In this document: positions 45,668 through 63,049 of the stretch, in pieces
Numbering within the stretch: position 1 is the stretch's first letter
Layout: each line of letters begins with the position of its first letter
Source: Anastatus disparis
Lineage: Eukaryota; Arthropoda; Insecta; Hymenoptera; Eupelmidae
Assembly: GCA_017163975.1 (NCBI GenBank)
Contig: JAFFSR010000230.1
Location: 472,501 to 536,500, forward strand
Direction of reading: 5' to 3'
Length of the DNA stretch: 64,000 bases
The notes under the pieces: generated by a model
Database searches by the model: none
Told to the model about the DNA's origin: nothing
Seen by the model: the letters and a program-made list of their open reading frames with translations, nothing else
Program-made: the position numbers and the translations under genes

Positions 45668-45796
45668 GATGTATTTTTGATTTATGTATTGTAATAATAT
45701 TTATTTCCTTTTTTCATGAATTTATGTATTATTAAAGTTTCGCCGCTTTTTTATGTGATGAAATTGTTGTAAGATTTTAAAATATTATTCTACGAC

Positions 45797-45906
45797 AGTA
45801 GTTATAGGGGCACCATGGACCGTCAAAACAAACCCCCACTCCACCACCCCAAAGGTTACTGACCGGTGAGTCAATGACCTCTGAGAAGGTGAAGTAGGGG
45901 CTTGTT
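45797..45906 (+). repeat. Polinton left terminal inverted repeat
   Basis: Pairs with 62934-63043; I count 7 differences in the first 105 positions. Subterminal GGGTCAC..CCCC words are tandemly repeated just inside (about 45936-46010). Confidence 0.9.
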
Positions 45907-46307: not shown

Positions 46308-47125
46308 TTACAACGTAGAATTCATACAATTAACTAGTGTGTACATATGATAAATAATAAATTCGTGTATAATTATAAACAAATCTTCTTTTCCTAAAAC
46401 TAAATTATTCTTTTTTAATAATTCGATGAGATCATTTACAAAATTATCATTAAAACTAGACATTGTGTTTTTTATATCGCTAGAAGTAAAGTATACATAT
46501 TGAGATTCCTGACTTTTTTCTAATACATTTTTCATATTTGCAACCATTTCTCGTAATATATAATCCACAGATTTTGCAACAGTATTTAAATATCTAATTC
46601 TATAATCTATACATTTTGATAAATCTTTTAAACGTTCAAACGTGACACGTTTAAATACTAGTGACCGATTAAATCGACCATATTTTTTCGGCGGTCCACC
46701 ACACTCCTCTCCTTCTGGTTGTGCGTCATTAGGTACCAATTCAAAAGCTCTTTCGTGAAAACTAATCATAAAACGGATAGTGTATCCTGGAATAGATAGC
46801 CGCTGATCCAGCATAGATTCCTCATTATAGCAAGTGAAAAAATCTTCAATTTTATCAAATTCCTCCTTCAACGCCTCCCAACAGTCTAGTGACAGAGGTA
46901 GACCTTGAAAATTGGCTCCACAGAAGCGTACCACGGGTGCAAACTCCTTTTTGCCTTCGCCGCCTATATTCTCCAGGCCTACCTGGATAATTTTTCCAAA
47001 AGAGCTGTTCAGCCGTAGACCATTGGCAGAACCTGCTGCCAATAATTTTTCTTGCTATTTTGTTTTATTAAATATGCCAAGTCATTACCAAATGTCTGCT
47101 CCAGGCTTCTCTTTTGACCAGCCAT
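46308..47125 (-). pseudogene. Unassigned Polinton protein, frameshifted near its start
   Basis: The main open frame (46308-47042, ~244 codons) lacks an ATG at its beginning. In another frame an ATG at 47125 opens MAGQKRSLEQTFGNDL and stops at 47009, so the gene most likely started there and has a frameshift near 47010. The readable part has a compact domain (KIIQVGLENI, FAPVVRF, LPLSLDCWEALKEEF) followed by charged helices and a hydrophobic C-terminus. I do not know its function. The first domain faintly recalls PC4-type ssDNA-binding folds, which is only a suggestion. It is the terminal gene of the capsid cluster. Confidence 0.6.
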
Positions 47126-47280
47126 CTTGGTTAGGTTTTCTTGCTTGTTACTGCTGTCACTGTCGATCACACACAACTGTGGCTAGACCAAGTGGATACC
47201 ACTTCTTTTATACTGTAAAAATTGGTGGGGATGTCGTAAAAAGGTGGCGTGCAACCAATCAGAGACAGTCAAGTATCAAA

Positions 47281-47723
47281 TTATGCATAGCAAGTTTTTT
47301 CTATGAAATTCTTTACTATAGCATCATTTTTTTGCAAATTCTGCGAGAAATTTTCCAAGAATTTCTTGAAACCCAATCCGGTAGACATATAATACAGAAA
47401 CATGATACAATAATGACCACAAACATTGGAATATTCGCTTTGTAAGCGTTTATTATTCCATCTAAATTTTTACAATTTTGCTGAATACGTCGTAAATGTT
47501 GTTGAATTTGTGGTGGCTTACCAAGACTATCAAAGTACACACCTGTGCCATACTTATCAACGTATATGGCAACCCAGTGCGCACCACGCTGGTTATAATT
47601 TTGCGTATTAAGCACAAGCGCACAAGGTTTCACCCACATCAGAGGAATCCGATCCGCTGGATAAACGCCTACTGCGTGAAACTTGATCCTCATCAGATAT
47701 CGAACAATCTCTTTTGAATTCAT
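47281..47723 (-). pseudogene. Adenain-like maturation protease, frameshifted
   Basis: Adenovirus-type cysteine protease (C5 clan), which in Polintons processes virion proteins. An ATG at 47723 opens MNSKEIVRYL. The conserved Phe-x-Gly-Val-Tyr start block is followed by catalytic His in RGAHWVAIYV (residue 49) and Asp in VYFDSLGKPP (residue 65). The nucleophile region, with a CGHYC-type motif, is present just downstream but in a different frame: a frameshift near 47430 separates it. The displaced frame ends at 47281. Overlaps the upstream ORF by about 115 nt. Inactive as it stands. Confidence 0.85.
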
Positions 47724-48252
47724 TGCGGAGAATTTCGAAAAATTCTTCCACAATCAGCGATTTCACGCTGGGGTTAAGTTTCAGTAGCCACTGTTTCAGA
47801 TTAGCAGCGTTATTTAGAGCACACACGTAATTTGAATACGATGATTTTATGTAATGATGCATACACTGTACACTGCTGAAATTCAAATTTCTAAAAGCTG
47901 GACAATCTTGTTTTTCTAAATTTTCAATCTTACAGGTGGTGAGCTTGGAAAGTAGTTCAAGCTTTTCTTGACCTCGCACGAAAATTACACGACAATGCTT
48001 GCAAATATCTTCCAAATTTTTGTATAATCTTTTTATCGATATATCACCTTCGTACCACTCCAGACCATGATGATTCAGTGTCACCCAATTGTTCTGTCTC
48101 AAAGCATTTTTAGGTAAGCGTCTTAAATTACAAGGAGGCGCCACAATCCAATGAGCGATAAAGTTTTTATGAATAGCAAGTACAGCCACCTCCTTTGGAA
48201 TCAAACGGTTTTTGTTGTCCTTTAAAAACTGCACGTCAATCACCACGTCCAT
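47608..48252 (-). CDS. Polinton protein with possible degenerate exonuclease (DEDD) fold
   Basis: 214 codons from an ATG. The order of blocks resembles DnaQ/DEDDh exonucleases: MDVVIDVQ..IPKEVAVLAI (strand with Asp near residue 5), ICKHCRVIFVRGQEKLELL (ExoII-like helix without the usual Asp), CPAFRNLN, then CMHHY..CALNNAANLKQWL (ExoIII-like). Glu of ExoI appears replaced, so it may be non-catalytic. The last ~40 residues overlap the protease start and may be out-of-frame extension. The fold assignment is inference; the gene itself is firm by position and length. Confidence 0.6.
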   Translation of the reverse strand: MDVVIDVQFLKDNKNRLIPKEVAVLAIHKNFIAHWIVAPPCNLRRLPKNALRQNNWVTLNHHGLEWYEGDISIKRLYKNLEDICKHCRVIFVRGQEKLELLSKLTTCKIENLEKQDCPAFRNLNFSSVQCMHHYIKSSYSNYVCALNNAANLKQWLLKLNPSVKSLIVEEFFEILRNEFKRDCSISDEDQVSRSRRLSSGSDSSDVGETLCACA

Positions 48253-48344
48253 ACTGTTTGCAATTAAAGTTGCTCGCCGACTGAGATGATAAAGATGGCT
48301 TTGCTCCGCTTAAATAGCGAGAACTATATCCCCACCACTACTAC

Positions 48345-49646
48345 TTAACCGCTATAATCCACGACAACCTGTCTCGACGAGTCAATTTCGAGCAAATTGT
48401 CGTATTCAGCATAAATTATACAATTTACAGCGCCCTCTAGCGGGTCGTCGAATCTAACATCAATTCGTACATTACCATTTTTTATCAAATTCCAATGACT
48501 ACCATCACTCGCCGATAAATCAGGTGTCAAATCAAAAGCGAATAGGCAGTAACCGTTTGGATAGTCTTTACGGGTAATCGAGTTGCCTGAATTCATAAAG
48601 TGAATACCAGTGCCGGAAAAAAGTGTATGATAAGCATCAACGTACATTTTGCTATTTTTGAAATCTGGCTGTAAGGGTTTCGATGGCACTTGCATTCCAT
48701 CAACGTACAGACATAAAAAATTTATATTAAAATTCTTGAAATTAAACGGGTTAAGACTTTTATCTCCGTTGTAAGCTTTATTCTCAACAAAACCGAGTAT
48801 AATTCTTTTTGGTAGTTGACCTAATATGACATTGTCGATTGTTTCCCCATGCACACCATTATGTAGTGTAACAGCCTTAACTTCTACACGTGTCAGTGGG
48901 TATTTTGCAGTAGTCTGCGACAATAGTTTTTCGTGAGCTAGCACGAGTGAAGGATTTAATCTTACTCGACGTACAAAAAGCGTAGCCTCTGTAATATTTA
49001 CTGTGAAAGCACCAGCGGGATCCATGAGACAGAAACCATCACGAGAACGCACGAGCCTTACTCTAACTTCAACACCACCCAGTAATAATTTGTCTTGATT
49101 AAAAACATCACAATGTAAATGGCCGAGTAAATCAATCTTTCTGTTAACCATAAGCGCTTTACGCTGGCTGAGACCTGTATTACCACCTGTGGTATCGTCC
49201 ATTTTTCCTGCTGTATCATCGTACCACAATCCACTCGTTAAATGAGACTTTTTAGCTGTTGGGCCATAATTTAGTAATGTTTCAATGTAAGCTCTGTACG
49301 CATAAGCATTGTTTGGTGGTGAAACAGGTTTCTGATTGAATAGCACGTCGACTTGATTGAACAACGAATGCAAAAGATTATTTATTGGTCCAACGTTCGG
49401 ATCTTTAGGTGGTTCAGCACTAGTGCATGTTACACTGACACTCACACTTAACATTGTGTGAGCCAAGTCTAGATACTCAGTGTTGCCAGGGATGGTAAAT
49501 TCAATTGGTGATTGGTCGTTAAGTGAAGATATCGGTTTGTACTGAACCCAGTAAGAGCCTTCAATTGCAGTCTGTGTCGAAGGTAATTCAAAAAGTGATA
49601 ATTCCGACTTGATCGACTGACAAGATTCTGTATGCAACAGCGCCAT
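48345..49646 (-). CDS. Major capsid protein (double jelly-roll)
   Basis: Intact 433-codon ORF from an ATG (MALLHTESCQSIKSELSLF). Strand-rich sequence without low complexity. Features recalled from Polinton capsid proteins: FTIPGNTEYLDLAHTMLSV near residue 50, INNLLHSLFNQVDVLFN near 90, a long insertion region around 120-170 and a C-terminal FDLTPDLSASDGSHWNLI followed by NVRIDVRF. The family is often annotated in insect genomes under the C. elegans name F54H12.2. It would form the hexagonal capsomers of an icosahedral particle. Neighbours (penton, basic protein, protease) agree. Confidence 0.85.
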   Translation of the reverse strand: MALLHTESCQSIKSELSLFELPSTQTAIEGSYWVQYKPISSLNDQSPIEFTIPGNTEYLDLAHTMLSVSVSVTCTSAEPPKDPNVGPINNLLHSLFNQVDVLFNQKPVSPPNNAYAYRAYIETLLNYGPTAKKSHLTSGLWYDDTAGKMDDTTGGNTGLSQRKALMVNRKIDLLGHLHCDVFNQDKLLLGGVEVRVRLVRSRDGFCLMDPAGAFTVNITEATLFVRRVRLNPSLVLAHEKLLSQTTAKYPLTRVEVKAVTLHNGVHGETIDNVILGQLPKRIILGFVENKAYNGDKSLNPFNFKNFNINFLCLYVDGMQVPSKPLQPDFKNSKMYVDAYHTLFSGTGIHFMNSGNSITRKDYPNGYCLFAFDLTPDLSASDGSHWNLIKNGNVRIDVRFDDPLEGAVNCIIYAEYDNLLEIDSSRQVVVDYSG

Positions 49647-49678
49647 CTTGAAATTTTAATTTTCAAATATATCTCTAG

Positions 49679-50172
49679 CTACACGTGCTTTCTTATTCTG
49701 CTTCTTCTTCTTTTTCGTAACTTTATCACTTTTCGAGCGTTTAGCCGCTGAGGTGTTTGTAGTGCCAGGTGCACTCGACGACTGAGTTGATGATGTCTCG
49801 TTCTTCTTTTTATATTCTGATTCCTCCCTTCTTTCGCACTTGACTCACCCAAGAGCAATTTGTCCAGAACAACGTCAGCTTTTCTTTTGAGATTTTTACC
49901 ACTCTCGCGAATGCGCTGTTTGGTCGCCTCTTTGACCGGTCTGCCACCTAGAGTGACATCATCTAGGATATTTTTACCCGCTCGGAGAGCCTCCTTACCG
50001 ACCACTTTTGCACCTTGTTTGATCTTCGGTACAGCTGCTCGGAAGAGGCCTTTCAAAAACTACCTACTCCTGCACCCGACTGGTGATAACCAAAACAAGG
50101 TTTACCAACTGTAACACACTTACCCCCACCACCAATCATTTGGTTATTGAAAAAATCTTCAAACACAGGCAT
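49679..50172 (-). pseudogene. Basic GLF-containing virion protein, frameshifted
   Basis: An ATG at 50172 opens MPVFEDFFNNQMIGGGG and a glycine/hydrophobic stretch, then a frameshift in a T5 run near 50058. The downstream frame carries LKGLFRAAVPKIKQGAKVVG and a Lys/Arg-rich middle. A second shift near 49835 is likely because the C-terminal lysine-rich tail reads better in another frame. Similar proteins in Polintons and adintoviruses are compared to adenovirus pVI/pX-type core or cement proteins. It begins 2 nt from the end of the penton gene. Confidence 0.7.
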
Positions 50173-50173
50173 T

Positions 50174-51004
50174 TTATCGGATGCGCTTAAAGTGAAGCGT
50201 TACAGTCAGCGTACCGTAGTCGAATGGAATGGGAAATCCGTGTTCGTCTCTTATATCTATTTCTATCGACTGAAACGCTGAAGACAGCAGTGGTAGGTAC
50301 ATGGGTGGTGAAAAGTTTTTAATTTCAACACCTCCGTAAACGTAGTCACGCAAATGAAGCGAGACTATACGTAGTAAGCTCGTGCGCATGTCACCTGTTA
50401 CATAAGGCTGGCAAATGTTGCTGTAAACCATGAGCACGGTTGGTAACCCGTTCACAAGATTTGCTGGTCGATTACCGGCAATGTAGTGCTCTTTATTACC
50501 TTTGCAAGAGAAAATTGGTACATTTTCCAAACCTAAAATTCTAAGTAATTTTTCCGATAGGGTAAACGTGTGCATATAAGTTGTACAATCTTCACCACAT
50601 CGACATATAATCTGTACATACCCACCAGCGCGGATTTCAAAATATAAATGATTTTTCACATTCTCGAGACTATTTATTTCTTCTAAGAGACTTTCAATAT
50701 CACGGTAAACACCAGGTTTAACGCGGGCAAACACCTCGGCCTTCTGTTGAGTCTCCTCCTCTGTTTCTCGCAAAACATTCGCCACGTCACGTTTGGATGT
50801 CTTAACAGAAATCACCCCCTCACGCTCTACCACTGATATATGCTGAAATGTGAGAGGTATTTGAATTTCCGTGAGTCCTACACACCAGTCGCCATGAAGA
50901 TAAAAATTTTGTGATAATTGTGTTGTAAAATGCGTCGCCACATTATGTGGAAAGACAAACTTGCTGCTGTTGCTCGGTAAAACCATGTAAAATTCATCGT
51001 TCAT
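50174..51004 (-). CDS. Minor capsid protein (penton-like, single jelly-roll)
   Basis: Intact 276 codons from an ATG. The N-terminal signature FYMVLPSNSSKFVFPHNVATHFTTQLSQ..LHGDWCVGLTEIQIP (residues 5-50) is the hallmark of Polinton minor capsid proteins, with a C-terminal strand-rich end GTLTVTLHFKRIR. Overlaps the integrase ORF by 11 nt. It would occupy the fivefold vertices. Confidence 0.85.
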   Translation of the reverse strand: MNDEFYMVLPSNSSKFVFPHNVATHFTTQLSQNFYLHGDWCVGLTEIQIPLTFQHISVVEREGVISVKTSKRDVANVLRETEEETQQKAEVFARVKPGVYRDIESLLEEINSLENVKNHLYFEIRAGGYVQIICRCGEDCTTYMHTFTLSEKLLRILGLENVPIFSCKGNKEHYIAGNRPANLVNGLPTVLMVYSNICQPYVTGDMRTSLLRIVSLHLRDYVYGGVEIKNFSPPMYLPLLSSAFQSIEIDIRDEHGFPIPFDYGTLTVTLHFKRIR

Positions 51005-52109
51005 TGTAAATTTTTAAATCTTTAGCTTCTATCCAAGAATTGAATTTTTCTGGGTACCCCCTCCAACTGACCAAATATTGTTTTTTCGACCCCCTACCTT
51101 TGCTCTTCAAAACCTCATCAACCTCAAACGCTTCGCTATCTAAATCTTTGCGCACTCTGCTCAACTGTTCTTCGTAAAAATATCCGTCAATTTTTTCTCC
51201 ATCAAGATCTGTCAAAATATAGACGGGTGGTTGTTGTCTTGTGTCGACTCTTATAATTTTAAACAGCTCCAGAGTCCAGCCACCCTCGTATGCTTTCCTG
51301 AAGGCTGTCTTGGCACGACTGACACGAACCAGATCGCCAACGCTGTATTTAGCTACTCGAAACGGCTGTTTTTCGCTGTAACGCAACGTCAAATTTTGAC
51401 GTACCACGTGAGCATTATATAAGTTGACTTTGGAAGGGGGCATTTTTATGGCACTGTGCCACGACTCGTTGTAACACGTCACAATTTTTTGCAAAACGTC
51501 TATATAACGTCTTGTGCGCGAGTGAGTAAAGTATCGCCAGATACGACCTTTGAGAGTTCGAATAAAACGTTCGGCAATGGCTGCCTTTATATCAGGGTCT
51601 CTGACGACTCGATAGGTAATATGTTTCTTTTTTAGCACCTCTTGCACCTCTCGACCGATAAACTCTTTACCTTTATCAGTCTGTAGATAAATAGGGTGTC
51701 TATCATTACATCGTGATAAAATTTTGTCTAATGCTACAGCGACGCTTCGACTGGTTTTGTCGAGAAGAGGCTCTACCCAGGCAAACTTTGAAAGTGCATC
51801 AATGACAATGAGAATATAGCTGTATCCATCATTGTAGGTTTTAAGTGATCTAAAATCTGCCAAGTCAGCTTCCCACACTTCAAAGGGGCTAAAAACGTTG
51901 TAATGTCGACGAGGAAAACGATGTCTCACAAGTTTGTGTAAGGTATGTGCATCCTGACTCTTCAACCATTTGGCAATGGTATTGTTATCAAATTTTTTGG
52001 GTTTCGCGTGTTTCAGTAGATGAGCACCAGCGTACGCTGATGGTGCAGAAAGATTATAGTAATAATGCTCAAGATCGTCCGGCTTTTTCGCCTCCTTCTT
52101 CTTTTTCAT
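50994..52109 (-). CDS. Retrovirus-like integrase with C-terminal chromodomain
   Basis: 371 codons from an ATG, no breaks. The RNase H-fold integrase core has Asp82 (WEADLADF), Asp145 (LQTDKGKEF) and Glu180 (AAIAERF), a D-34-E spacing. A C-terminal SH3-like region (YSVGDLVRVSR, GWTLELFKI) is followed by a chromodomain at about 328-366 (FEVDEVLK..YLVSWRGYPEKFNSWI). It inserts the linear viral DNA with a 6-bp duplication, as seen at the ends here. The chromodomain probably reads methylated histone tails for target choice. Overlaps PLA2 by 41 nt upstream and penton by 11 nt downstream. Confidence 0.95.
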   Translation of the reverse strand: MKKKKEAKKPDDLEHYYYNLSAPSAYAGAHLLKHAKPKKFDNNTIAKWLKSQDAHTLHKLVRHRFPRRHYNVFSPFEVWEADLADFRSLKTYNDGYSYILIVIDALSKFAWVEPLLDKTSRSVAVALDKILSRCNDRHPIYLQTDKGKEFIGREVQEVLKKKHITYRVVRDPDIKAAIAERFIRTLKGRIWRYFTHSRTRRYIDVLQKIVTCYNESWHSAIKMPPSKVNLYNAHVVRQNLTLRYSEKQPFRVAKYSVGDLVRVSRAKTAFRKAYEGGWTLELFKIIRVDTRQQPPVYILTDLDGEKIDGYFYEEQLSRVRKDLDSEAFEVDEVLKSKGRGSKKQYLVSWRGYPEKFNSWIEAKDLKIYNER

Positions 52110-52578
52110 TGCTCCTCCTCCTCCCCCTCTTACAAACTAGCTTTTTCTCTCTCTTTTGCTGTCTTTTAAATGTATTTTTAATGCGTTTCAAAAATTTATC
52201 AAACGCAATTTTGCTGACCATGCACAAAACAGTAATACCAGCTGCAGTCTTTTCATTACCATCCGCAGTCTCCGAGAGCATGCGTGAAAATGCTCGTTCA
52301 GCCAGCAGTCTGTCGGCTTTTATATGATTCGTTATTTTTTTATTTGAATATGAAATATCGTGCTCTAGACAGGCATTGTCAAGAGGATTTTTTCCTCTCT
52401 GACCACGTCTGAGACGCTCTTCGAGATGTGTGCCAGGGCCGAGAAACTGGTAGCCTGGTAGATGCATTTCAAAGGGTACAACCGAAATCAATCGGTCTAT
52501 AATAGTACCAGTTTTCTCCCCCTCCTCCTCCTCCTCCCTCTCCATCACTTCCTTCCATGCTTTCACATACGGTCCCAT
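52069..52578 (-). CDS. Virion phospholipase A2 domain protein (parvovirus-type)
   Basis: 169 codons from an ATG. The calcium-loop YQFLGPG (residues 43-49) and the LDNACLEHDISY block (66-77) with catalytic His73-Asp74 match the PLA2 domain that parvoviruses carry in VP1 and that adintovirus-type Polintons encode separately. In parvoviruses it opens endosomal membranes during entry. A Glu-rich patch lies before it and a Lys/Arg-rich tail after it. All catalytic residues are present, unlike the copy at 7620-8060. Confidence 0.85.
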   Translation of the reverse strand: MGPYVKAWKEVMEREEEEEGEKTGTIIDRLISVVPFEMHLPGYQFLGPGTHLEERLRRGQRGKNPLDNACLEHDISYSNKKITNHIKADRLLAERAFSRMLSETADGNEKTAAGITVLCMVSKIAFDKFLKRIKNTFKRQQKREKKLVCKRGRRRSNEKEEGGEKAGRS

Positions 52579-53393
52579 TTTAGCTGTTCGAGGCGACTCT
52601 TTTTTACAGGGGTTGATGGTGTAGCTGCCAACTCGCTACCAACTTTTTTACGCTTTTTCGCACTATCGACTTCTTTCTCCTTTACGCTCGTTAGACCAGT
52701 AGCTGTTGAAGAATAATAACCTTCGTTTTCCGACGACGATGACAGCGGTGAATCAGGGCTATGAGATGCAATCTTACGCCACAGTTGATCGTTACCAATG
52801 AATTCTCGAGGTATGCTAACTTGTCGCAAGACGCGTGCAAACTGTTTGTACCCGCGCGGTGGTGGTCTTTTTCTACTTCTCATAGCTTCGTTCATTAAAT
52901 CGACAATATTAGCACCCTCGACAACAGTGCCATCTAGCTTGATTATACCACGACTATCCCATTCAATATTACCAGCTTGCCGCAAATATCTAATGAGATG
53001 TCTAGCATTACTTTGAAATTTCTGCGGTACCGACTGGACAAACTGTTCGTCGTCGATTTCGTCATTATTGTCTGTACCCATCGTCGTTTCCGTTTCTAAT
53101 AATGTTGTCTCGTTTGGACGTATTATACTCCTATTTTCATCCTTCTTCTCCCCTCTTAGATGCAAGTAACGCTGCAAGATTTGTTGATATTGCAGAGATT
53201 TTTGACGCTCATCACCCGTAGAATGTAAAATTTTACTCATTTCTTCGTCAAGGCGTGTCGTGGCTGTACCAGGTGTCTGGACACTGGATGGTGGTGTTGT
53301 ATGATTGGTAGTTGGTACGTCGTGCTGCTGCTGCAGCCGCTGTTGCTCCAAGCACTCTTGTGGTACTAAAATCATTTTTCTTGCGTACTCCAT
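52563..53393 (-). CDS. Conserved 276-aa Polinton protein, function unknown
   Basis: ATG start MEYARKMILVPQECLEQQ, Gln/His-rich segment, Q-rich helix (SLQYQQILQRYLHLRG), acidic spacer, then a conserved domain (ARHLIRYLRQAGNIEWDSRGIIKLDGTVVEGANIVDLMNEA, about residues 130-170, quoted only in part as motif landmarks) and a Lys-rich C-terminus with nuclear-localisation-like KKRKK. Widespread in animal Polintons next to the ATPase and integrase genes, probably virion-associated. Overlaps neighbours at both ends by 16-22 nt. Confidence 0.75.
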   Translation of the reverse strand: MEYARKMILVPQECLEQQRLQQQHDVPTTNHTTPPSSVQTPGTATTRLDEEMSKILHSTGDERQKSLQYQQILQRYLHLRGEKKDENRSIIRPNETTLLETETTMGTDNNDEIDDEQFVQSVPQKFQSNARHLIRYLRQAGNIEWDSRGIIKLDGTVVEGANIVDLMNEAMRSRKRPPPRGYKQFARVLRQVSIPREFIGNDQLWRKIASHSPDSPLSSSSENEGYYSSTATGLTSVKEKEVDSAKKRKKVGSELAATPSTPVKKSRLEQLKWDRM

Positions 53394-53716
53394 GCCGATA
53401 AAACAGGTTTCACAATTAGCCGTAGTAAATATGCTGATTTTACCACCAATTTCCTTTTTACCTCCAAAATACCCGGTTTAGCGAGTTTTCGCAACAGTGG
53501 TGCGACTTTTCGCAATTGTTTCTTATAATATTTGCTGAGTGGAATATTTCCACGTAAAATGTTCAAAGCACACTCGCAAATGTACGTTATAAGTTTGGAA
53601 TTTGCTTCGCGTAATATGGCCTTGAGTTGAGAAAGTTCGATTTTACACAAAACATGTAGTTGAGTCCAGTACTTTTCTGGAATTGGTCTGCTACGACTAC
53701 GTCTCACCGGCTCCAT
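53372..53716 (-). CDS. Small basic Polinton protein (core/pVII-like position)
   Basis: 114 codons, Arg/Lys-rich, ATG at 53716 directly abutting the ATPase stop. Helical CICECALNILRGNIPLSKYYK near residues 47-68, then RKVAPLLRKLAKPG and a hydrophobic end. Proteins of this kind are recurrent next to the ATPase in insect Polintons. A DNA-binding or core role is plausible from charge only. A trace of it is left in the old Polinton at 10129. Confidence 0.65.
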   Translation of the reverse strand: MEPVRRSRSRPIPEKYWTQLHVLCKIELSQLKAILREANSKLITYICECALNILRGNIPLSKYYKKQLRKVAPLLRKLAKPGILEVKRKLVVKSAYLLRLIVKPVLSAWSTQEK

Positions 53717-54393
53717 TACAATCGCACGACTGGCACATTATTCGAGCGAGCACCAGCTTTTATGGGTTTGCAACGAGGCACATAAACGTACTGATGTTTG
53801 TCGAACGGGAATATACAAGTACGAAATCTCACGTTTTCAGGCGTACCCTGTTTCAGATCTATGAACAAATAGCCGTGTGGTTGTGCTGTGGCATCGAGAT
53901 ATGCCTCTTGCAAAAAACGAGGCTCCTCGGGACAGACTTGGCGCGCCAGATGATTTATTTGCGCTCGATCGCGCGGATTTTTAAATACCACGATGTAGTT
54001 AGAGTTTAAAGAAATTTCTCGCTGACCTTGATGAAAGAGATTTTGCGAGATAAAGATGACGCTCAAGTTATTGTGATGACTGCCTTTGGTAAAGAGATTT
54101 ACTTCAGCTCTGTTGGACGATTCTCTCATCAGATCGTCGAGAATCAAGAGTTTTGCTCGTGGATCATTGGCATAGTCTTCGCTCTTTGGTAAACCCTCGT
54201 GAAATTCGATACCCTCGGCCAACTCCTTGTAAATTGGCTGCCACTCGGTATAGTACAAGAGTATACGCTCGAATTTTGTATCACTCATGCGATCAATGTG
54301 ATGCAAAAAATTCTTCACGAATACTGTTTTACCACACGAGCTGGGTCCACAAATCATCAAAGTCCACGGATGCACCCACCTGCAAACATCCAT
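53716..54393 (-). CDS. DNA-packaging ATPase (A32/FtsK-HerA type)
   Basis: 225 codons from an ATG. Walker A GPSSCGKT (residues 16-23), Walker B LLILDD (82-87), sensor-like IFISQN (114-118), Arg-containing C-terminal region. Size and motifs match Polinton and NCLDV A32-like genome-packaging ATPases, which pump DNA into the capsid. First gene of the leftward late-type cluster; the divergent spacer to 54876 probably holds its promoter. Confidence 0.95.
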   Translation of the reverse strand: MDVCRWVHPWTLMICGPSSCGKTVFVKNFLHHIDRMSDTKFERILLYYTEWQPIYKELAEGIEFHEGLPKSEDYANDPRAKLLILDDLMRESSNRAEVNLFTKGSHHNNLSVIFISQNLFHQGQREISLNSNYIVVFKNPRDRAQINHLARQVCPEEPRFLQEAYLDATAQPHGYLFIDLKQGTPENVRFRTCIFPFDKHQYVYVPRCKPIKAGARSNNVPVVRL

Positions 54394-54692
54394 GTTACCG
54401 TCGCTGCTGCTAAACTTCTATTACTAACCTCATCGAATTCTCGAACCACTCTACATATACGATCATTAAGAGTGATGAGCAAGAGTGGGGGGCGGCGGCG
54501 GCGGCGGCGGCGCGCGCATGTGCGAGCAGTATCGTGCTGGCACTAGCCAATCGTTTAGCTGATTAGCCATATAGCTGGCTGACGCCAGTATTATTCCGCT
54601 CTTTAGCTATATGGCTGAAAGAGCCAAATAAGTATTAATCACCTACTTATAATTAATACCCCTACCACCACCACCACCACCACCATTTATAG
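54394..54692. promoter_or_regulatory. Divergent spacer with inverted repeat and triplet repeats
   Basis: Lies between the leftward ATPase cluster and the rightward PPP1R15-like gene. It contains a (CGG)n tract at about 54490-54511, a perfect 12-bp inverted repeat AGCCATATAGCT/AGCTATATGGCT (54565-54576, 54605-54616) and a (CCA)n tract near 54664-54685. Probable bidirectional control region, by position. Confidence 0.45.
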
Positions 54693-54724
54693 TATAAAAT
54701 TTAAAGCGTTGGTAAACGGTCAGT
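54693..54724 (+). promoter_or_regulatory. TATA box and initiator of the PPP1R15-like gene
   Basis: TATAAAA at 54693-54699 and an arthropod-type initiator TCAGT at 54720-54724 (predicted +1 A at 54722), 29 bp apart, the normal spacing for RNA polymerase II. Confidence 0.65.
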
Positions 54725-54782
54725 GCTGGTTAGTCTTGAAAAAGTGCTGCCATCGTGAGCAATAACCAAGAAATTGAAAAAG

Positions 54783-54844
54783 GTAATAAATTTTTATCAA
54801 AGAATTAATCAGATTTAAATTTTTGATTCTCAACAATTTTACAG
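54783..54844 (+). other. Predicted 62-bp 5'UTR intron
   Basis: AAG|GTAATA donor and TTTTACAG acceptor, with a T-rich tract between. Removing it leaves a leader of about 92 nt before the ATG at 54876. Confidence 0.5.
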
Positions 54845-54875
54845 AAAAGAGAGTCTACAAAAGGTACAGTGAACG

Positions 54876-55091
54876 ATGAATCAAACAAAACAAGTGCATT
54901 TCAAAAAGGGTAAGCCGAAAATTCATGTGATACGCGTGTGGGACTATGCGAGTCGTACAGCGCGACGTGGAGAGTGGGAGCAAGCGGCTCGTGATAGAGA
55001 AAGATTCAGAATGAGAGTCGAAAGGATGCGGATTATTCTGGAACCTGTGCTTTTGAAAAAAATTGATGACTACTCAATTAATAGAAAATAA
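54876..55091 (+). CDS. PPP1R15/GADD34-like PP1-binding protein (viral eIF2-alpha phosphatase cofactor)
   Basis: Intact 71 codons, the only rightward gene of the provirus. KQVHF (residues 5-9) is an RVxF-type PP1 docking motif. VWDYA (21-25) and ARRGEWEQAARDRERFRMRV (29-48) give the spacing and residues of the conserved PPP1R15 core that holds PP1 and eIF2-alpha: Trp22, Ala25, Arg30, Gly32, Trp34, Glu35, Ala38, Arg39, Asp40, Arg41, Arg43, Phe44. Host PPP1R15 proteins are much longer, while the herpesvirus and African swine fever virus counterparts are short like this. Known role of the family: bring PP1 to phosphorylated eIF2-alpha and reverse stress-induced translation arrest. Function here is inferred. 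The polyadenylation signal AATAAA (55087-55092) overlaps the stop codon. Confidence 0.8.
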   Translation: MNQTKQVHFKKGKPKIHVIRVWDYASRTARRGEWEQAARDRERFRMRVERMRIILEPVLLKKIDDYSINRK

Positions 55092-55221
55092 ATTTATTTT
55101 TTCGTTTTACATTTTTATAAAATATAAAAATTTATTTCAAAATAGTTTGTGTTTTAATTCTCTCTCTTTATCCTGTATCATATATTCGCTTTAGTAATAA
55201 TATATTTACAATAATTTATTT

Positions 55222-57795
55222 TTAATTAGACTTATAACCGTATGGATAGCTAATCTCGTTATTCACGAATCGTCTCTTTGAGTACACGGGCTCGCATATT
55301 TTACATTCAGGCTGTGTTATAAAATCGTGAAACCGTGTGCGTCTAATAGCGTCATAGTTTACAAAAAGTGGCGGTATTTTACCAGTAATAAGATCTCGTA
55401 TAGAATTAAAGTTTATTTTCTGACTCACCGACGAATTAAGTCTTATACCCTTGATTTTGCAAACACATCCTTCAACGCCATCTGGTGTCAAATATTTATA
55501 GGCGTAAAATTTGGGTCCTCCAGAGACGAATGATGTGATGCTTGTGCCAAGACCATAACAGGCCAATTCGTCGGTCAAGTCACCCAAGAACGGCCCTGTT
55601 TTCGCATCGTACTCACCCTCGCGACTTACATACACAATAGAGTCTGTATCGTAATACAATACACGTTCACCCAGTGGTTGCAATTCTTCGTAAAGTTTTA
55701 AACGCGCCAAGGCTGTGGTATAAGCGGCTACGACAACGTTACACAATGGTGATGGCTCAACAGCTGATTCTTTGTTGTGCCAACTTATATAAATTGTCGT
55801 CTCATTGATCGGTAAAATTGAGTCGACCTCGGTCTCGACACTGCAGAGTAACTCAAACAATCTTTGTGGATCATCTATCACTTCAGTCTTTGGCATATTC
55901 TCTCGTTGACCAAATTTACCCCACAATGAATTTAAACAGAGTTTTGCTACAGATCTCAGACCAGCGTTATATTTTATTCGAGTTTTGTCTAATTTAATGC
56001 CCTCTTGTTGCACAAATTCCTCAATATATCGAGCAATCGCGTTTTCATCACCGTCAGCACATTCCAAAGGGTAACCCGACGCATAAGTTTTCTCAGCGAA
56101 AAATTTATCGATATAAGTTGGAAATAGACCACCCTGACCCGTGGCCTTGTTGTACTGAGTAATTTTATAAGACCATATTTCAAATATTTTTCTGATGATA
56201 TAACCCATCTGAACAGCTATTTTTAACTCGTCAGCAACCCACGTGCCGATAAAAACTCGATCATCAGGATTTTCATGGTCACAATCTGCGGTATACATTG
56301 ATTCGGCACACGTTCGACACAGCGGAAACAAAAGCTTATTATGCATTTTAACGGGTAGTACAGCATGGTATATATTTCGCGGCGGCAATACTTCGCATTT
56401 AATAAGACCTTCAACGTGACTTATATTATTTGTTTGACCCACCAGAGAGCGACACTCATCTTCATCCACGTAAAGAGTAGGATGACCAACGGGATATCGA
56501 CCGTATTTACAGATATATGGATATAATGAACACACGTCTACGTATTTTATTTTCTCACCCTTTTTTGCATCGTAAATTTTGACTATATTACCCGTACGAC
56601 CACCGAAAAATGCTTCTCGAGGATTCAACGGTTCATGCCAATTTCGTGTTTTATTATCGATATACGTCTTCATAATTTCATTCTGTGAGTACTCATGATC
56701 AAAATCACATTCCCACTTTTCTATTAGTTGATAGCCGTGGCTTCTTATCTTTTCGGATATTCGCGCGGTTCTCTCGAAACGTTCGTCCATATTTTCACCA
56801 TTTACGAGGCGTGAGTCACGGTTCACTGTGTAACACCATACACAGCCATGCCAATAACACCCGTGGAATTGTAAAACAATTTTCGTACCGTTTTCAAGTT
56901 CGCAGTATCCATCCACTAGAGGGCCCTCGGGAAGTCTCTTTTCTCGAGCTCGGACAGTATACCGAATTTGATGATTCAGCACATTTTCCATCCAACACAG
57001 CCACCGCATCGCCTTCATAGACTGCTTGTTTGCTTGTCTATAACCACCCTGAGGTATGATTCCTATAGTGTCTTTTTGTAAAAAATTTTTTCTATATACA
57101 CGCATACAAGATGATGCGATGGTGGCGCACTCTACGAATGGATCCGTATTACCACATTCTATGAAGGTTTTGCGAAAGGCCAAGCATGCTAATCGTAAAA
57201 TTTTTACATCTTGTCTACAGTATTTTATAATCTCATTTTTAAAATTAAATATATAATTTTCATTTTTTTTTTCATTATACCACTGTATAAATTCTCGTCG
57301 CTCATCGACCTTCATCGAATCTGGTGAAAAAGACCACACAGGTGGAATTTCTCCAACGTAATTTTGATTCTCTGGTGTGTTAAACAAATGAGGAAACGTA
57401 CCTTTCTCGATATTAGCAAGACCGTAAGCTTTTGGTAGTGCAGCTAAACTCATGTGTAAGTAATTTAAGCTATCTATGAATTTAACGGTTGAAATTTCCA
57501 TTATGATTATTTTTGACCCGTTTAAAATTACATCTGGCTTATCTCTAAGATCTGTACGTTCTGTCAAATGCTTGAGAATAAATTGCGCATCAAAACCCTG
57601 TGCATTGTGGGCTATACAAATAATTTGCTTGAAACTTTTTCTTGTTGCTAAGGCCAAATCAACTAGCTGTTTTACAGGGTCGATTTCAAACACGTATTCG
57701 CGTATACCACATATTTCGCAAGAATTTGTTATATTTTCATCATCCAAACAATAATTACATACTTGTTGTACAACACACAAGTTTGGTACATGCAA
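55222..57795 (-). CDS. Protein-primed DNA polymerase B, exonuclease and polymerase part
   Basis: 857-codon open frame. Exonuclease region with HNAQGFD (residues 63-69) and YCRQDV (192-197). Motif A DVCSLYP (420-426), motif B with Lys618 and NSLWG (622-626), motif C YDTDS (715-719), all intact. An N-terminal CxxC pair (residues 13-30) and C-terminal ITQPECKICEPVYSKRR. It replicates linear viral DNA from terminal proteins. The ExoI (Asp-x-Glu) motif is not in this frame: it lies at about 57845-57880 in a third frame, between two frameshifts that separate this part from 57812-59152. So the polymerase gene is broken although its catalytic core is open. Confidence 0.95.
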   Translation of the reverse strand: MHVPNLCVVQQVCNYCLDDENITNSCEICGIREYVFEIDPVKQLVDLALATRKSFKQIICIAHNAQGFDAQFILKHLTERTDLRDKPDVILNGSKIIIMEISTVKFIDSLNYLHMSLAALPKAYGLANIEKGTFPHLFNTPENQNYVGEIPPVWSFSPDSMKVDERREFIQWYNEKKNENYIFNFKNEIIKYCRQDVKILRLACLAFRKTFIECGNTDPFVECATIASSCMRVYRKNFLQKDTIGIIPQGGYRQANKQSMKAMRWLCWMENVLNHQIRYTVRAREKRLPEGPLVDGYCELENGTKIVLQFHGCYWHGCVWCYTVNRDSRLVNGENMDERFERTARISEKIRSHGYQLIEKWECDFDHEYSQNEIMKTYIDNKTRNWHEPLNPREAFFGGRTGNIVKIYDAKKGEKIKYVDVCSLYPYICKYGRYPVGHPTLYVDEDECRSLVGQTNNISHVEGLIKCEVLPPRNIYHAVLPVKMHNKLLFPLCRTCAESMYTADCDHENPDDRVFIGTWVADELKIAVQMGYIIRKIFEIWSYKITQYNKATGQGGLFPTYIDKFFAEKTYASGYPLECADGDENAIARYIEEFVQQEGIKLDKTRIKYNAGLRSVAKLCLNSLWGKFGQRENMPKTEVIDDPQRLFELLCSVETEVDSILPINETTIYISWHNKESAVEPSPLCNVVVAAYTTALARLKLYEELQPLGERVLYYDTDSIVYVSREGEYDAKTGPFLGDLTDELACYGLGTSITSFVSGGPKFYAYKYLTPDGVEGCVCKIKGIRLNSSVSQKINFNSIRDLITGKIPPLFVNYDAIRRTRFHDFITQPECKICEPVYSKRRFVNNEISYPYGYKSN

Positions 57796-57811
57796 ACTTA
57801 TTTTTTCACCA

Positions 57812-59152
57812 TCAGCACCGAGATAATTTCCGATTGTTGAGTCTCAAAATCATAAAATAAATAAAGTATATTCTTTTTATTGGTTGCAAATCCTTTTTGC
57901 TGATAAAGGGTTGCATGTAACAAAGGTGTTCTATCGGCATTTTACGATTACATATTTTGCAAAATATCGTATTACAATTATGTGGATCTTTATCGCACAT
58001 TCGAACTGTTTTACTGCACAAACGACAAATTTTTATGCTCTCGCATACCGACCGAAAATTATCGAAAGATTTTGAGATTTTATGATTTTCCAGACAAACA
58101 TTACCGTAAAAATCTCTAGTGCATTGAATACATTTTATTTTTTCCTGATTTATATCGCAAGGGGGACTCTGAAAACATTTACAACATTTTTGTGGACATT
58201 TATGATTTTTTTGATGACTAAACTTTTTATTACAAGGTATGCAGTAGCCACGGCTGCCAGCTGCTGCGAGTAAATTTAAAATTGGCTGGTAATGATTAGA
58301 ATTTTCGTAATACATTATATTTAAGGTATGTCTAACTACATTACCAACATCGTGTACAAAACGTGCACCATCGTAAAGTGGTTTATAGCCTCGAGCAAAG
58401 TTTTGAAAAGAATAAACAACTATTGCAGCGCCGAAAAGCGCATAATATTCTTGAAATAATTTTATTTCTTCGATACCACAGCCTGTTTTGGGTATCGTAA
58501 CTCTCGCAGCTTTGACAAGTTTCAACGCTTGCACTTTCTGATATTGTGCTGTGTGGTGTCTTATTCTATTCCACCTGTCATGGTGAATACCACTGCGCAT
58601 CTGACCACGTATAGCATATACATGAGCAGCGACTAGCGAGCGTGGAAGGCAAAGATTGTCGGTATTTTGAATATTTAGAATGGATTTCTTGAAAACTGAT
58701 TCGCTAGTGAGTGATACCCGACCGCGTCCCTCTGGTTTAGAAACAATGCTGACTTTCACGTTTAAAACATCATCGATTTCAAAATTGTCATTACTCTGTG
58801 CTACAGAAGCTAATAACTCGAGTAGATCTGTCGGTGAAAAATCACGAACCAGTCTAAAAGAAATCCATAAAGAACCGTGAACAAATCGGTCAGAGTTTAT
58901 AGTTATACCGATATAATCTGAAGGTCGCGCATTTTCACACACATGACGATATAAATCATTTATTGCTGCCTCAAACCACGTATACACATTCGCATTAGGT
59001 GGTGGGGGCAATATTGACACTCTTAATTGTCTACCTTGTAACTTAAATTGGCGGTAATATCGTGATGATTCTTCATGAATCGTAATGTGGTTCTGAGTAG
59101 TAGTAGTACCACCTCCCTGTTGAAGATATTTGTCTACAATATGATATACCAA
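57812..59152 (-). pseudogene. PolB N-terminal part: OTU-like domain and Cys-rich region
   Basis: 446-codon open frame without an ATG near its beginning, which suggests that the true start lies in an upstream exon. Residues 165-168 (DNLC) and His287 (NHYQP) are placed like the Asp/Cys and His of an OTU-type protease. Then GSRGYCIPCNKKFSHQKNHKC opens a zinc-rich region (about 299-425) ending in HLCYMQPF. The frame is lost near 57880 just before ExoI. A candidate splice acceptor ATATTGTAG lies at about 59134-59142. In other Polintons this region precedes the polymerase in one protein. Confidence 0.8.
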
Positions 59153-59191
59153 AATTACGTGAAAATGTATGATTTATAAATTTACGCTTAA

Positions 59192-59695
59192 GGAGATGTA
59201 AAACGGACACCACCCCTGCTTTCATGAATTTGACTTATTTTTTCATTATATTGCAAAACTTGAGGAAAAGAAATGCTTTAGCTTGTAGTATTTACCATAA
59301 AGATCATTCAGTTAAATTTTCAAATAAATTCATTCATTAGTTTTAAAAATTTTAGTGTTCCAATATTTATATATGGTCAATGTCCCAATCGCTACTCACG
59401 AACCTATTACTAGCTACTCATTGTTAAAAATTTTTTGGTATCTAAATAACATTGTGCGGTTAGTAATAGGTTCGTGAGTAGCGATTGGGACATTGACCAT
59501 ATTAAAATTTTTAAATTATGTACAAGAAATTTAAAATTCTGAGAAATTAATAAATGAATTTATTTTAAAATTTAATTGAATAATCTTTATGGTACATATT
59601 ACAAACTAAAGCATTTATTTTCTTAAAAATTTGCAATAAAATAAAAAGATAGTAAATATTTATGAGTATAGGTGTAGTGTCCATTTTACATCTCC
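59192..59695. mobile_element. 504-bp palindromic TTAA MITE
   Basis: Ends GGAGATGTAAAACGGACACC and complement of GGAGATGTAAAATGGACACT, flanked by TTAA (59188-59191, 59696-59699). The inner arms GGTCAATGTCCCAATCGCTA are a perfect inverted pair around a ~90-bp loop near 59370-59500. It lies between the second exon and the PolB N-terminal frame, so it either sits in an intron or cuts the gene. Confidence 0.85.
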
Positions 59696-59699
59696 TTAA

Positions 59700-60605
59700 A
59701 CCAACCTGTATTCTCTCTGTACCTGGTGATTCAGATGAAATCATCGTATTAAGTGTATTCTGCTCGTTATTATTGATCGCCATTGATGACTGTCTCTCAT
59801 CATCACCCCACCAAGAGCAACCAGGCATTGGTTCAAAAGGTGGTGGCGCTGCTGTATTATTATTTACCCCCTCCACCGCAAAGTTTGGGGTAGTTTCAGA
59901 GACATTTATGACTTCTCTTACCTCTTCGGGGGGTGGTAGTAGCACAAGATCTCTCGAATCAGATACATCTTCTTCTTCGGTCAGAAGCCTTATCAACAGT
60001 TCATCCCCACTACTGTCCTCCATCATATTTTGCAGGTCTGTAAAATTTATGTAAAATCTGTTTAGTTGCACTATTTTTAACAAAAAAGTCTTATCCCGCG
60101 AAATTCTGTGATCATAAACAATAAGTTTATTGGTTATTGATTATTGATCCGAAACTGATATTTTCTTGCAAATCATGTTTTCAGATTTATTATTTTATTC
60201 ACAACAAAAAAGTATTTTATAGCGAAATTCTACGATCGTAAAGAAAAAAGATACAAGCTTTTAAACGGTAAAAGAAATTATGAATAACTTACCTTTAATA
60301 ACACGGTGATGTAACATGAGAAGCCTGACTTGTGACGCATCTTGCATCCCTCTGCTTTTAATACAACGACCAGCAATGTCAAGTATTTCATTATCGTTAA
60401 AAATACCTCGCTTAAACATATAAGCTAAGGTACGTAGTCCGCAAAGTCCTAAGATAAATTTAATTTTTTTTAATAATTCATTATTGGCGCAAATATTTAG
60501 ACTTTTGCGCCATGAATTATTGCAAAATAATTTTATTTGCGGCTCTCGAACTAATGCTATATTAACAATATTTATCAAGACTTTAAGTAAATTTTTTCTA
60601 ACCAT
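59700..60605 (-). CDS. Two-exon acidic 5' reading frame (possible PolB N-terminus or separate early gene)
   Basis: Exon 1 60605-60293: ATG, helical and basic, start MVRKNLLKVLINIVNIAL, containing CGLRTLAYMFKRGIF. Donor AAAG|GTAAGT, 255-bp intron (60038-60292), acceptor TTTTACAG|AC. Exon 2 from 60037 continues in frame: strongly acidic (MMEDSSGDELLIRLLTEEED), Pro-rich, ending ESPGTERIQVG at the MITE. A weak donor G|GTTTAA at about 59700 joined to the acceptor near 59134 would fuse it in frame to the PolB N-terminus. Otherwise it is a separate small gene whose end was replaced by the MITE. No family recognised. Confidence 0.55.
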
Positions 60606-60676
60606 CTTACTTCGTGTTGATCTTCTTCTCTGGAACGTTGAACTTTAACTGTTAATCAGACCTGTCAATCTTCGCG

Positions 60677-60684
60677 TATTTATA
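60677..60684 (-). promoter_or_regulatory. TATA box upstream of the two-exon frame
   Basis: TATAAATA on the minus strand, about 75 nt upstream of the ATG at 60605, with ACAGT initiator-like sequence about 30 nt downstream. Confidence 0.5.
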
Positions 60685-61399
60685 GTACGATTTAGAAGTA
60701 GGAATGAGGGGTGACGAAGGGGTAGTATGTGCGCAACATTTAATATTTCAAGAATCATCTTAATTTGATATTTAAATCCGCCAACGCATGTAAAATAATG
60801 TCAGTTTGGCGCGAATCGTGGACCGGTGTGCATGTAAGTATAAATCAGAATGCATATAATTCACCATCATTTCGCTTATGAGTAGGCGGGAATTTTTTCA
60901 TGTAACGCGATCACACTTGGGCGTGTTCTATATCGTCCACCTAGCTAGTGTGTGTCTTAAGTAAAGAGGCGTTAATTGCTCAACCTAAATCATTCGTAGT
61001 GAAATAATTTGTATATATTTACATATATTCTGCATATAATTAATACTTATTTGCATATATGTATATATTTACATACATTCAGTATAAGTAGAATAACTAC
61101 ATAACATTTATTTAAATTATAATATATATATAGATATTGTAAAAGATATGAATGTTATGCTCTTCTACTTTCTGCTATCCTGATACTTTTTATTAATTTT
61201 TCGTAATAATCTCTTGTTTTTTTTTACATAAAAATTTGAATTTCAATGCATTTATCATTTGCATGTTATTTGCATATGGGTAACGCATTGCACGTTATTT
61301 GCATATAAACATTGTGTAAGTAATGTACTTACTCATTACCATGTATACTTTTATGACATTGTAGACCATATTCAGTTTAATATCCTGAGGTCTTATTAA

Positions 61400-61468
<69 letters not shown>

Positions 61469-61486
61469 GCATATATATATATATAC

Positions 61487-61526
<40 letters not shown>

Positions 61527-61530
<4 letters not shown>

Positions 61531-61660
61531 GTTCTTAGTTATATACGCAACTTGGGCGTATTAACAATGAATTTCAAAAATAACTAATCACAAGAGGAAG
61601 AATAGCTTTTATAATACCCTGATACTTTCTCTTATATTTATCATGAATTGTCGATATTTA
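61527..61660 (+). repeat. Dispersed repeat R1, copy C (partial)
   Basis: Begins GTTGTTCTTAGTTATATACG like copy B, then diverges after about 130 bp. Adjacent to (TA)n. Copies B and C are in direct orientation 275 bp apart. Confidence 0.65.
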
Positions 61661-61802
61661 TTGCGTGATGATTGATAATTTATCAATAACAATTTTTAAA
61701 TAATAAATATCTTTCAATATAATATATTCGATTTTGATAAATATTTATATTTACATATGATTTACATATGTATGTATGTGTGTATATATATATATATACA
61801 CA

Positions 61803-62035
61803 GTTGTTCTTAGTTATATACGCAACTTGGGCGTATGAACAATGAATGTCAAGAACAACTAATCGCAAGAGGTAGAATAGTTATACTTCTTCTTATGTTT
61901 TGGGCTCCTGATACTTTTTTATCATTTTTGTATCACTTTCTCTATATTTATTGATTCGATACCTTGGTAATGTAATGTAATGATAATAAATATATATTAT
62001 ATTTAAAATATAATAACCAATTTTAATGCATGGCT
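61803..62035 (+). repeat. Dispersed repeat R1, copy B (uninterrupted)
   Basis: Reverse complement of the 3430-3912 copy without the MITE. It starts after a TA microsatellite with GTTGTTCTTAGTTATATACG, and includes CTATATTTATTGATTCGATAC where copy A carries the insertion. Confidence 0.75.
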
Positions 62036-62069
62036 TATTTGTCCATCATTTGCATATCATCTGCATATG

Positions 62070-62122
<53 letters not shown>

Positions 62123-62182
62123 AATGTATATATTTTATACAGATTTTTGTTTACACGTGTATGTATAGACATACATATTAGA

Positions 62183-62216
<34 letters not shown>

Positions 62217-62798
62217 GCTTATATATACGCATATTTTTTATTTATTTTATAAAAATGGAATAGGGTAAAAAGAGAAAGAAAGAGAGAGAGAGAGAGAGAC
62301 ATTTCTCATTTGCTAAAATTTTAAGTTTTATAAAATAGCACCCGTACATACGTCTTGAGGAGATAGATTTCTTACGTTGAAATTTTAGATTTATAACGTC
62401 AGCACCCTAACATACGTCTTTTTCATAAAATTGATTGCAAAAGAGTCAGATTAACAATCTTAGCGTGAGAATGGTATGTGATTTTTTTATTAATTATGAT
62501 TATTTTAACTTTATTTTAAAATATGCTTCTCAAAATACACTTATTAATATTTTCCTGCAAAAGAGTATCAAGTTGCTATTCGTAGTGTGGGAATGGTATG
62601 TAATATTTTTATTTTCGGTGGGGGAGAGTTAGGCTATTAAGGGTAAAGATTCGGCTTCACTGTCAGTCTCCATCGAAACTCCGGGCAGAAAGGTTGTTCT
62701 ACAATGTGAGTCTACGTCGGGATGTGCTTCCAACAATGATCAGCTGGTATAAAATTTTTAAATTCCAAATATTGTGTATTTATTTTGTGTGTGTGTGT

Positions 62799-62849
<51 letters not shown>

Positions 62850-62933
62850 CGTATGCGTGTGAGTATGTGTGTTTGTGCGTGTGCGTGTGTGTGTGAGCGT
62901 GCATTTATTTCTTGGGGCACCAATGTTCCGTCT

Positions 62934-63043
62934 CAACAACCCCTACTTCGCCTTCTCAGAGGTCATTGACCTAGTGGTCAGTAACCTTTGAGGTGGTGGA
63001 GTGGGGGTTTGTTGTGACGGTCCATGGTGCCCCTATAACTACT
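62934..63043 (-). repeat. Polinton right terminal inverted repeat
   Basis: Reverse complement of 45797-45906. The outer block 63015-63033 and the sequence at 62916-62934 are inverted copies of each other (GGGGCACCA...), so the terminus can also fold into a ~120-nt hairpin. Confidence 0.9.
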
Positions 63044-63049
63044 TACGAC

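Follow-up and report, generated by a model that had tools for sequence, protein, structure and literature searches.

What is a short gene resembling the core of PPP1R15, a cofactor that brings protein phosphatase 1 (PP1) to eIF2-alpha, doing inside a Polinton of an insect genome? The question is raised by a 64-kb stretch of Anastatus disparis DNA (contig C228:472501-536500 of a 939-Mb genome), called here the window. A preliminary description had singled out in it a 71-codon open reading frame (ORF) with a KQVHF motif and a suitably spaced Trp/Arg block, had placed this ORF between the ATPase and PolB genes of a Polinton and had assigned its product to the PPP1R15 family. These three points withstood the analysis reported below. 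The protein, named R15 hereafter, is best explained as a PPP1R15-core homologue in a 17.2-kb Polinton, which probably recruits PP1 and G-actin to dephosphorylate eIF2-alpha and would in this way sustain translation during infection.

The Polinton and its older relative

The element is delimited by inverted repeats, both of which begin AGTAGTTATAGGGG (at 45797 and 63043), and by a 6-bp target-site duplication; together with PolB, a retroviral-type integrase and a packaging ATPase, these ends identify it as a Polinton (Table 1). R15 stands between the ATPase and PolB, on the strand opposite to both. The candidate major capsid protein gave no Pfam or PDB match, and its predicted model (pLDDT 28.6) has no usable fold; as regards a viral, infectious life of the element, this is counted against the preferred explanation. 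ORF 214, which stands 6.6 kb from R15, has no Pfam match, its best PDB match being no better than E 0.44. A 156-nt inverted repeat (81%), which overlaps ORF 153 at 59188-59699, looks like a small inserted repeat; stretches matching it were also seen near R15 at other loci.

Table 1. Features of the window and the evidence on which each is based
Feature	Position	Strand	Evidence or remark
R15, 71-aa PPP1R15-core protein	54876..55091	+	71 codons and stop
RVxF-type PP1-docking motif KQVHF, residues 5-9	54888..54902	+	sequence; aligns with RVxF of PPP1R15A
eIF2-alpha/actin block, residues 30-48	54963..55019	+	complete match to published motif
TATAAAA box, putative	54693..54699	+	upstream of R15; identical heptamer in 37/44 A1 copies
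Putative intron, 5' leader of R15	54783..54844	+	in A1 copies, GT in 42/44 and AG in 42/44
Broken R15 remnant, nearest to A2 subfamily	10272..10379	+	tblastn E 6.9e-11; inside older Polinton relic
Polinton element, 17,247 bp	45797..63043		inverted repeats at both ends and 6-bp duplication
Left terminal inverted repeat	45797..45900	+	detected arm 45785-45900, 90% complementary
Right terminal inverted repeat	62940..63043	-	pairs with left repeat
Target-site duplication TACGAC, left copy	45791..45796		6 bp
Target-site duplication TACGAC, right copy	63044..63049		6 bp
DNA polymerase B (PolB, organellar/viral type)	55222..57501	-	Pfam DNA_pol_B_2 E 6.7e-38
Packaging-type ATPase	53716..54393	-	Pfam Pox_A32 E 2.8e-5, above cut-off
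Integrase with chromodomain	50994..52109	-	Pfam rve E 2.1e-11, Chromo E 1.8e-8
Phospholipase A2-like protein	52069..52578	-	Pfam PF08398 E 1.2e-9, above cut-off
433-aa ORF, candidate major capsid protein	48345..49646	-	size and place only
214-aa ORF (ORF 214), unknown fold	47608..48252	-	relatives near R15 in other element types

An older Polinton relic spans 6545-14703 of the window, with pieces of an integrase, a phospholipase-like gene, R15, PolB and ORF 262 that show 56-85% identity to the younger element. The R15 remnant that had been noticed at 10268-10390, and taken as belonging to an older relative, was indeed recovered inside this relic (Table 1), where its frame is broken by a stop codon and part of its interior has been deleted. 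Its DNA is 75% identical to L057, a copy of the A2 subfamily described below, over 208 aligned columns that include upstream DNA.

The R15 reading frame and its upstream signals

The ORF carries KQVHF together with ARRGEWEQAARDRERFRMRV. The published eIF2-alpha-binding motif, quoted in PMC5346070 as Rx[GNL]x1-2Wxxx[ARLV]x[DN][RG]xRFxx[RLVK][IVC], has a single occurrence across the six frames of the window, which is the R15 ORF. Upstream, R15 appears to have a TATA box of its own and a leader intron (Table 1), and these putative signals are counted in favour of the explanation given above. In three A2 copies (L057, L059 and L060) the reading frame of R15 continues without a stop over 19-20 codons 5' of the ATG, with residues unlike those of the A1 subfamily; the leader and the start of R15 may thus differ in these copies.

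Homology to the PPP1R15 core

Compared with solved chains by phmmer, R15 matches PPP1R15A (E 8.2e-7, 32.1 bits), African swine fever virus (ASFV) DP71L (E 2.2e-5, 27.6 bits), a second PPP1R15A chain (E 2.3e-5) and PPP1R15B (E 0.031). With a profile of ten R15 family members, the best match is PPP1R15A at 4.6e-15, and DP71L and PPP1R15B are found at 4e-8 and 9.1e-6. The BLOSUM62 local score of R15 against the human PPP1R15A core is 105, to be compared with a maximum of 58 when the ORF was shuffled 20,000 times and with 41 for the next best frame of the window (601 stop-to-stop frames of at least 40 aa). A chance match to PPP1R15A is excluded by these shuffled and whole-window scores, which are far below 105.

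Among the profile searches, the one with Pfam PP1c_bdg proved weak (E 0.031, 14.4 bits, under the gathering cut-off of 26.1), whereas those with the solved chains and the family profile are significant. The core exon of the host's own PPP1R15 also stays under this cut-off, with 26.0 bits, and the 230-position model exceeds the core, so that the cut-off does not judge core-only proteins fairly. All ten members of the R15 family are matched by PP1c_bdg at E ≤0.1 (best 9.4e-6). Since the gathering score is missed, R15 is classed as a PPP1R15-core homologue and not as a Pfam-certified PP1c_bdg member; its homology is proved by the matches to solved chains of PPP1R15 and by the profile of the family. 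The PP1c_bdg score is counted against the preferred explanation. NCBIfam gave a single match to R15, far under its cut-off. Matches to Flu_NS2 and NIPSNAP were rejected as weak and, where a cut-off was given, under it.

Copies and element types in the genome

R15 had been suspected to be more than a one-off capture, and its distribution bears this out. When the genome was searched with R15, the best 150 of 1147 first-look candidates showed identities of 85-100%; with an A2-type R15, the best 150 of 1150 candidates were scored. The union of the typed lists contains at least 221 R15 places. In-frame stops, counted by eye, occur in 33 of the 150 best copies, and this also weighs against the preferred explanation. 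Forty-eight copies of type A were fetched (44 A1 and four A2), and a survey of their surroundings found the ATPase or PolB beside R15, on the opposite strand, in all 48. Among the 150 ATPase copies listed, 97 have a listed R15 at most 2.5 kb away, on the opposite strand in 97 of 97, and 53 have no listed R15 nearby (85 at first, 53 after the A2-type R15 places had been added); R15 may have been lost from some ATPase-bearing copies, which is counted against the preferred explanation. Polintons seem to abound in this genome, since the first look gave 3246 candidates for the ATPase and about 1150 for R15.

A search of the genome with PF10488 returned 75 places, of which 22 were read (20 with wider flanks, plus L010 and L014). 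They comprise 15 loci of type B (one of them, L034, being degraded and loosely classed), two of type C, four of type D and one host-type gene (L022). At 13 of the 15 type B loci, R15 comes after a relative of ORF 214 and has the same orientation. One B copy has an integrase (35% identity, 7e-50), an ATPase (23%, 9e-10) and a phospholipase-like gene (50%, 8e-23), and a PolB match was not found within the approximately 16 kb read around it. In both C loci the ORF 214 relative lies about 2.5 kb from R15, on the same strand, and core Polinton genes were not seen within the 6 kb read. Three of the four D loci have an ORF 214 relative, and an integrase match lies beside the fourth. These relatives of ORF 214 in types B, C and D are 27-39% identical to it. 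Type A is a Polinton, and type B is read as a Polinton-type element by its three core genes; what links C and D to A and B is just the neighbouring gene, or a single integrase. R15 thus occupies two genomic positions, one between ATPase and PolB in antisense, the other after ORF 214 in sense. Identities of R15 among A, B and C range from 61 to 68%; between A and B, the integrase shows 35% and the ATPase 23-25%.

Conserved residues and predicted fold

According to PMC5429092, human PPP1R15A with V556E no longer binds PP1, and with F592A it binds actin less well; dephosphorylation of eIF2-alpha-P is lost in the W582A and F592A mutants and strongly impaired in R578A. According to PMC8500838, F592 and R595 form the actin side, R587, D588, R591 and R594 form the eIF2-alpha side, and R591A, R594A and W582A give a weaker holoenzyme in vitro. 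In the alignment, the mutation-sensitive residues V556, R578, W582, R591, F592 and R595 correspond to V7, R30, W34, R43, F44 and R47 of R15, and R587, D588 and R591, on the substrate side, to R39, D40 and R43. The ten-member family alignment shows no variation at R30, W34, D40, R43, F44 and R47; R39 is conserved at 90% or more. R594 is not kept, being replaced by M46 in R15 and by Ser in the host core; the published motif tolerates any residue at this position, so R594 does not define the family (motif quoted in PMC5346070).

These residues strongly suggest a mechanism in which PP1 is directed to eIF2-alpha. As judged from their conservation and from the published work on PPP1R15A and DP71L, V7 and F9 would dock on PP1 and R30 would occupy its arginine pocket. 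The helix from W34 on would then grip G-actin with one face (F44, R47) and the beta-barrel of eIF2-alpha with the other (R39, D40, R43).

The RVxF pattern is found in 44 of 44 A1, 4 of 4 A2, 14 of 15 B, 2 of 2 C and 4 of 4 D copies. The strict eIF2-alpha motif is present in 33 of 44 A1, 3 of 4 A2, 1 of 2 C and 4 of 4 D copies; it fails in all 15 B copies, which have ARDH in place of ARDR. Both M46 and the ARDH of type B are counted against the preferred explanation. They speak for an alternative in which R15 binds PP1, and perhaps actin, and steers the phosphatase to another substrate, such as an immune factor or a viral protein used in packaging or replication. So does the RVxF motif, which is common among many PP1 partners (PMC4394352). 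Docking through this motif alone, however, would need none of D40, R43, F44 and R47, which are invariant, nor R39, kept in at least 90%; redirection to another substrate is for this reason judged unlikely.

The AF2 model of R15, obtained with a two-sequence alignment, shows a disordered N-terminus and a predicted helix over residues 34-69, at a modest pLDDT of 66 that is likewise counted against the preferred explanation. The predicted helix is in keeping with the helical extension known for the PPP1R15A core, which begins on actin at Trp582 (PMC8500838). A fold search with this model retrieved nothing at E ≤0.001, which counts neither way, as a mostly single-helix model holds little fold signal. 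The LSAVL segment of DP71L has two leucines critical for function and dispensable for PP1 binding (PMC5346070), and these align with L55 and L59 of R15.

With its 71 residues, R15 can be complete, since the 70-residue PPP1R15 core on its own attenuates the stress response in cells (PMC4394352). R15 has no counterpart of the N-terminal eIF2-recruiting region described for PPP1R15B, and one could imagine that it sequesters PP1 or G-actin as a competitor and thereby blocks the host PPP1R15, leaving eIF2-alpha phosphorylated. We give hardly any credence to such a competitor: core-only fragments of both PPP1R15A and PPP1R15B attenuate the stress response, and DP71L triggers eIF2-alpha dephosphorylation.

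Selection on R15

Substitution rates were estimated by the Nei-Gojobori method from non-independent pairs, which makes rough values of the following figures: dN/dS is 0.146 between A1 and A2 (44 x 4 copies, 176 pairs; means of 16.1 synonymous and 12.8 nonsynonymous differences), 0.123 within A2 (6 pairs), 0.16 between A and C, and 0.61 within A1. For the A-B and B-C comparisons dS is saturated, with dN at 0.25-0.28. Singletons within A1 amount to 56 nonsynonymous and 24 synonymous changes plus one stop, a ratio not far from the 2.6-3.7 expected under neutrality. Little can be read from the close pairs within types B, C and D, whose dN/dS values of 0.42-0.96 come from few changes. The sequences point to selection on R15 between bursts, followed by near-neutral decay after insertion.

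Low dN/dS between the subfamilies is difficult to reconcile with the idea that R15 is a functionless host exon, captured and then carried along by a successful element. The same holds for the dN of 0.25-0.28 at saturated or near-saturated dS among A, B and C, and for the two genomic positions in different element types. Capture itself would be easy, the PPP1R15 core being encoded by a separate exon according to published work, and near-neutral substitutions inside the A1 burst would suit a hitch-hiker, as would the dN/dS of the close B, C and D pairs, for the few changes that these contain. The trees bear on this idea as well.

Origin of R15 and database relatives

One host-type PPP1R15 was met among the places read (L022, on contig C254). 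Its core lies directly past an intron acceptor, its tail is HRMRIWHERFED, and the 9.4 kb around it show no match to the proteins of the window element except R15. In a 35-row tree, one clade (99/99) holds the seven rows labelled host-type (those of this genome, Drosophila busckii and Aedes albopictus, plus four database cores whose tail is similar); three unlabelled rows also fall in it. Outside this host clade, A, B and C form a group (90/86) that includes two database proteins. The preliminary description had pointed to a tree with the host PPP1R15, and this one sets the host-type cores apart from A, B and C. Human PPP1R15A, on a long branch, is outside the host clade in both trees, and outside the A/B/C group too in the 35-row tree. 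In the second tree, of 59 rows, one group (91/95) contains A, B and C and, besides a protein of the Megastigmus wasp adintovirus, 30 further database proteins; it is not among the starred branches.

Constraining A, B and C with the host's own core costs 22.9 log units, with an AU p of 0.073, hence no formal rejection. A recent capture of R15 from the present host was disfavoured on the ground of the separate host-type clade (99/99), with the AU test at p 0.073 only. The hitch-hiking exon considered above gains from the survival of this constrained grouping and loses by the separate clade of the insect host-type cores; taken with the selection data, it appears very unlikely. A single old viral R15 lineage comprising A, B and C is likely, and type D, whose long branch has no firm position, may stem from another capture.

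A first family profile retrieved 45 database proteins at E 0.01 (187 candidates), and a second one at least 123 at E 1e-6 (best 7993 candidates scored). One relative is a 'hypothetical protein' of the Megastigmus wasp adintovirus (P0010), which is 57% identical to R15 and fits the eIF2-alpha motif. A Nasonia vitripennis protein of 93 aa labelled 'PPP1R15A-like' (P0054) groups outside the host clade. A 'hypothetical protein' of Dasineura jujubifolia toursvirus 2a (P0083) is also of R15 type, Dasineura being a gall midge. On a 3.2-kb public contig, an R15 core is fused in frame behind another ORF (P0048); the Pfam label given by the source, PF26634, was not reproduced in our own Pfam search. No relative was confirmed when IMG/VR was scanned with P0001, with the PolB of the window and with two family alignments, and the phage collection yielded none.

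Proposed role in the host

Insects possess the eIF2-alpha kinases PERK and GCN2, and are not known to have PKR. Judging from this biology, the output of PERK and GCN2 would be the target of R15, which would be active during Polinton replication or virion production. We hold it somewhat better than an even chance that insect Polintons carry R15 as a routine means of countering host defence, an ancient module kept by purifying selection which has changed element families and positions and exists in hundreds of genomic copies, and that Polintons live as viruses which meet eIF2-alpha-based arrest in hosts thought to be devoid of PKR.

Should the reading of R15 as a PP1-eIF2-alpha subunit be right, Polintons would have to be added to the known carriers of such subunits, namely herpesviruses, African swine fever virus and a granulovirus. 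There would then be evidence that Polintons meet host antiviral translation control, and therefore that they go through a phase which is infectious or in which virions are at least made. One could then also test whether DNA viruses in insects are held back by the phosphorylation of eIF2-alpha. Some insect genes annotated as host PPP1R15A-like, for example Nasonia P0054, may be genes of integrated viruses.

Comparison with known systems

No published description of a PPP1R15 gene in Polintons was found, the main adintovirus paper and a Polinton review lying outside the search. Among the matches listed, the literature joining Polintons and eIF2 concerns only giant viruses and a sea anemone. Term searches found no such phosphatase gene in PMC8363768, PMC12451622, PMC11071308 and PMC5803895 (GADD34 being checked in three of them), and gave no hit in PMC10743859 for insect, baculovirus, granulovirus, poxvirus, transposon or viral protein. 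The initial remark that no description was known is not contradicted for Polintons by the literature searched, and has to be qualified by the existence of the P0010 record and of a granulovirus gene already in print (PMC4394352). As far as searched, a PPP1R15-core gene is new to Polintons.

With PPP1R15A/GADD34 and PPP1R15B/CReP, R15 shares the RVxF motif, the arginine-pocket Arg, the invariant Trp, the actin-facing Phe and Arg and the substrate-facing Arg, its identity to the PPP1R15A core being 42% across 53 aligned positions. It differs in the absence of the long N-terminal region, in one additional residue between RVxF and the first Trp, in the Met found for Arg594 and in a C-terminal tail of a type common to the other Polinton copies. 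ASFV DP71L is likewise a stand-alone viral core, of 71 aa in the solved chain, whose LSAVL leucines are kept in R15; it belongs to a virus of another group and gives a weaker match than PPP1R15A (27.6 vs 32.1 bits). The Megastigmus wasp adintovirus P0010 is a compact core from a virus that is of Polinton type by name, and it is unannotated.

Two other viral proteins are coGV-gp036, which we take to be gp036 of Choristoneura occidentalis granulovirus, presumably a baculovirus and not an integrating Polinton, and the HSV-1 protein, presumably ICP34.5, longer than R15 and endowed with other functions. Like R15, the HSV-1 protein is a viral carrier of the same core (PMC4394352), and gp036 is the PPP1R15 of an insect virus, named in a figure legend of that same source; viral PPP1R15 in insects is therefore not new as a kind.
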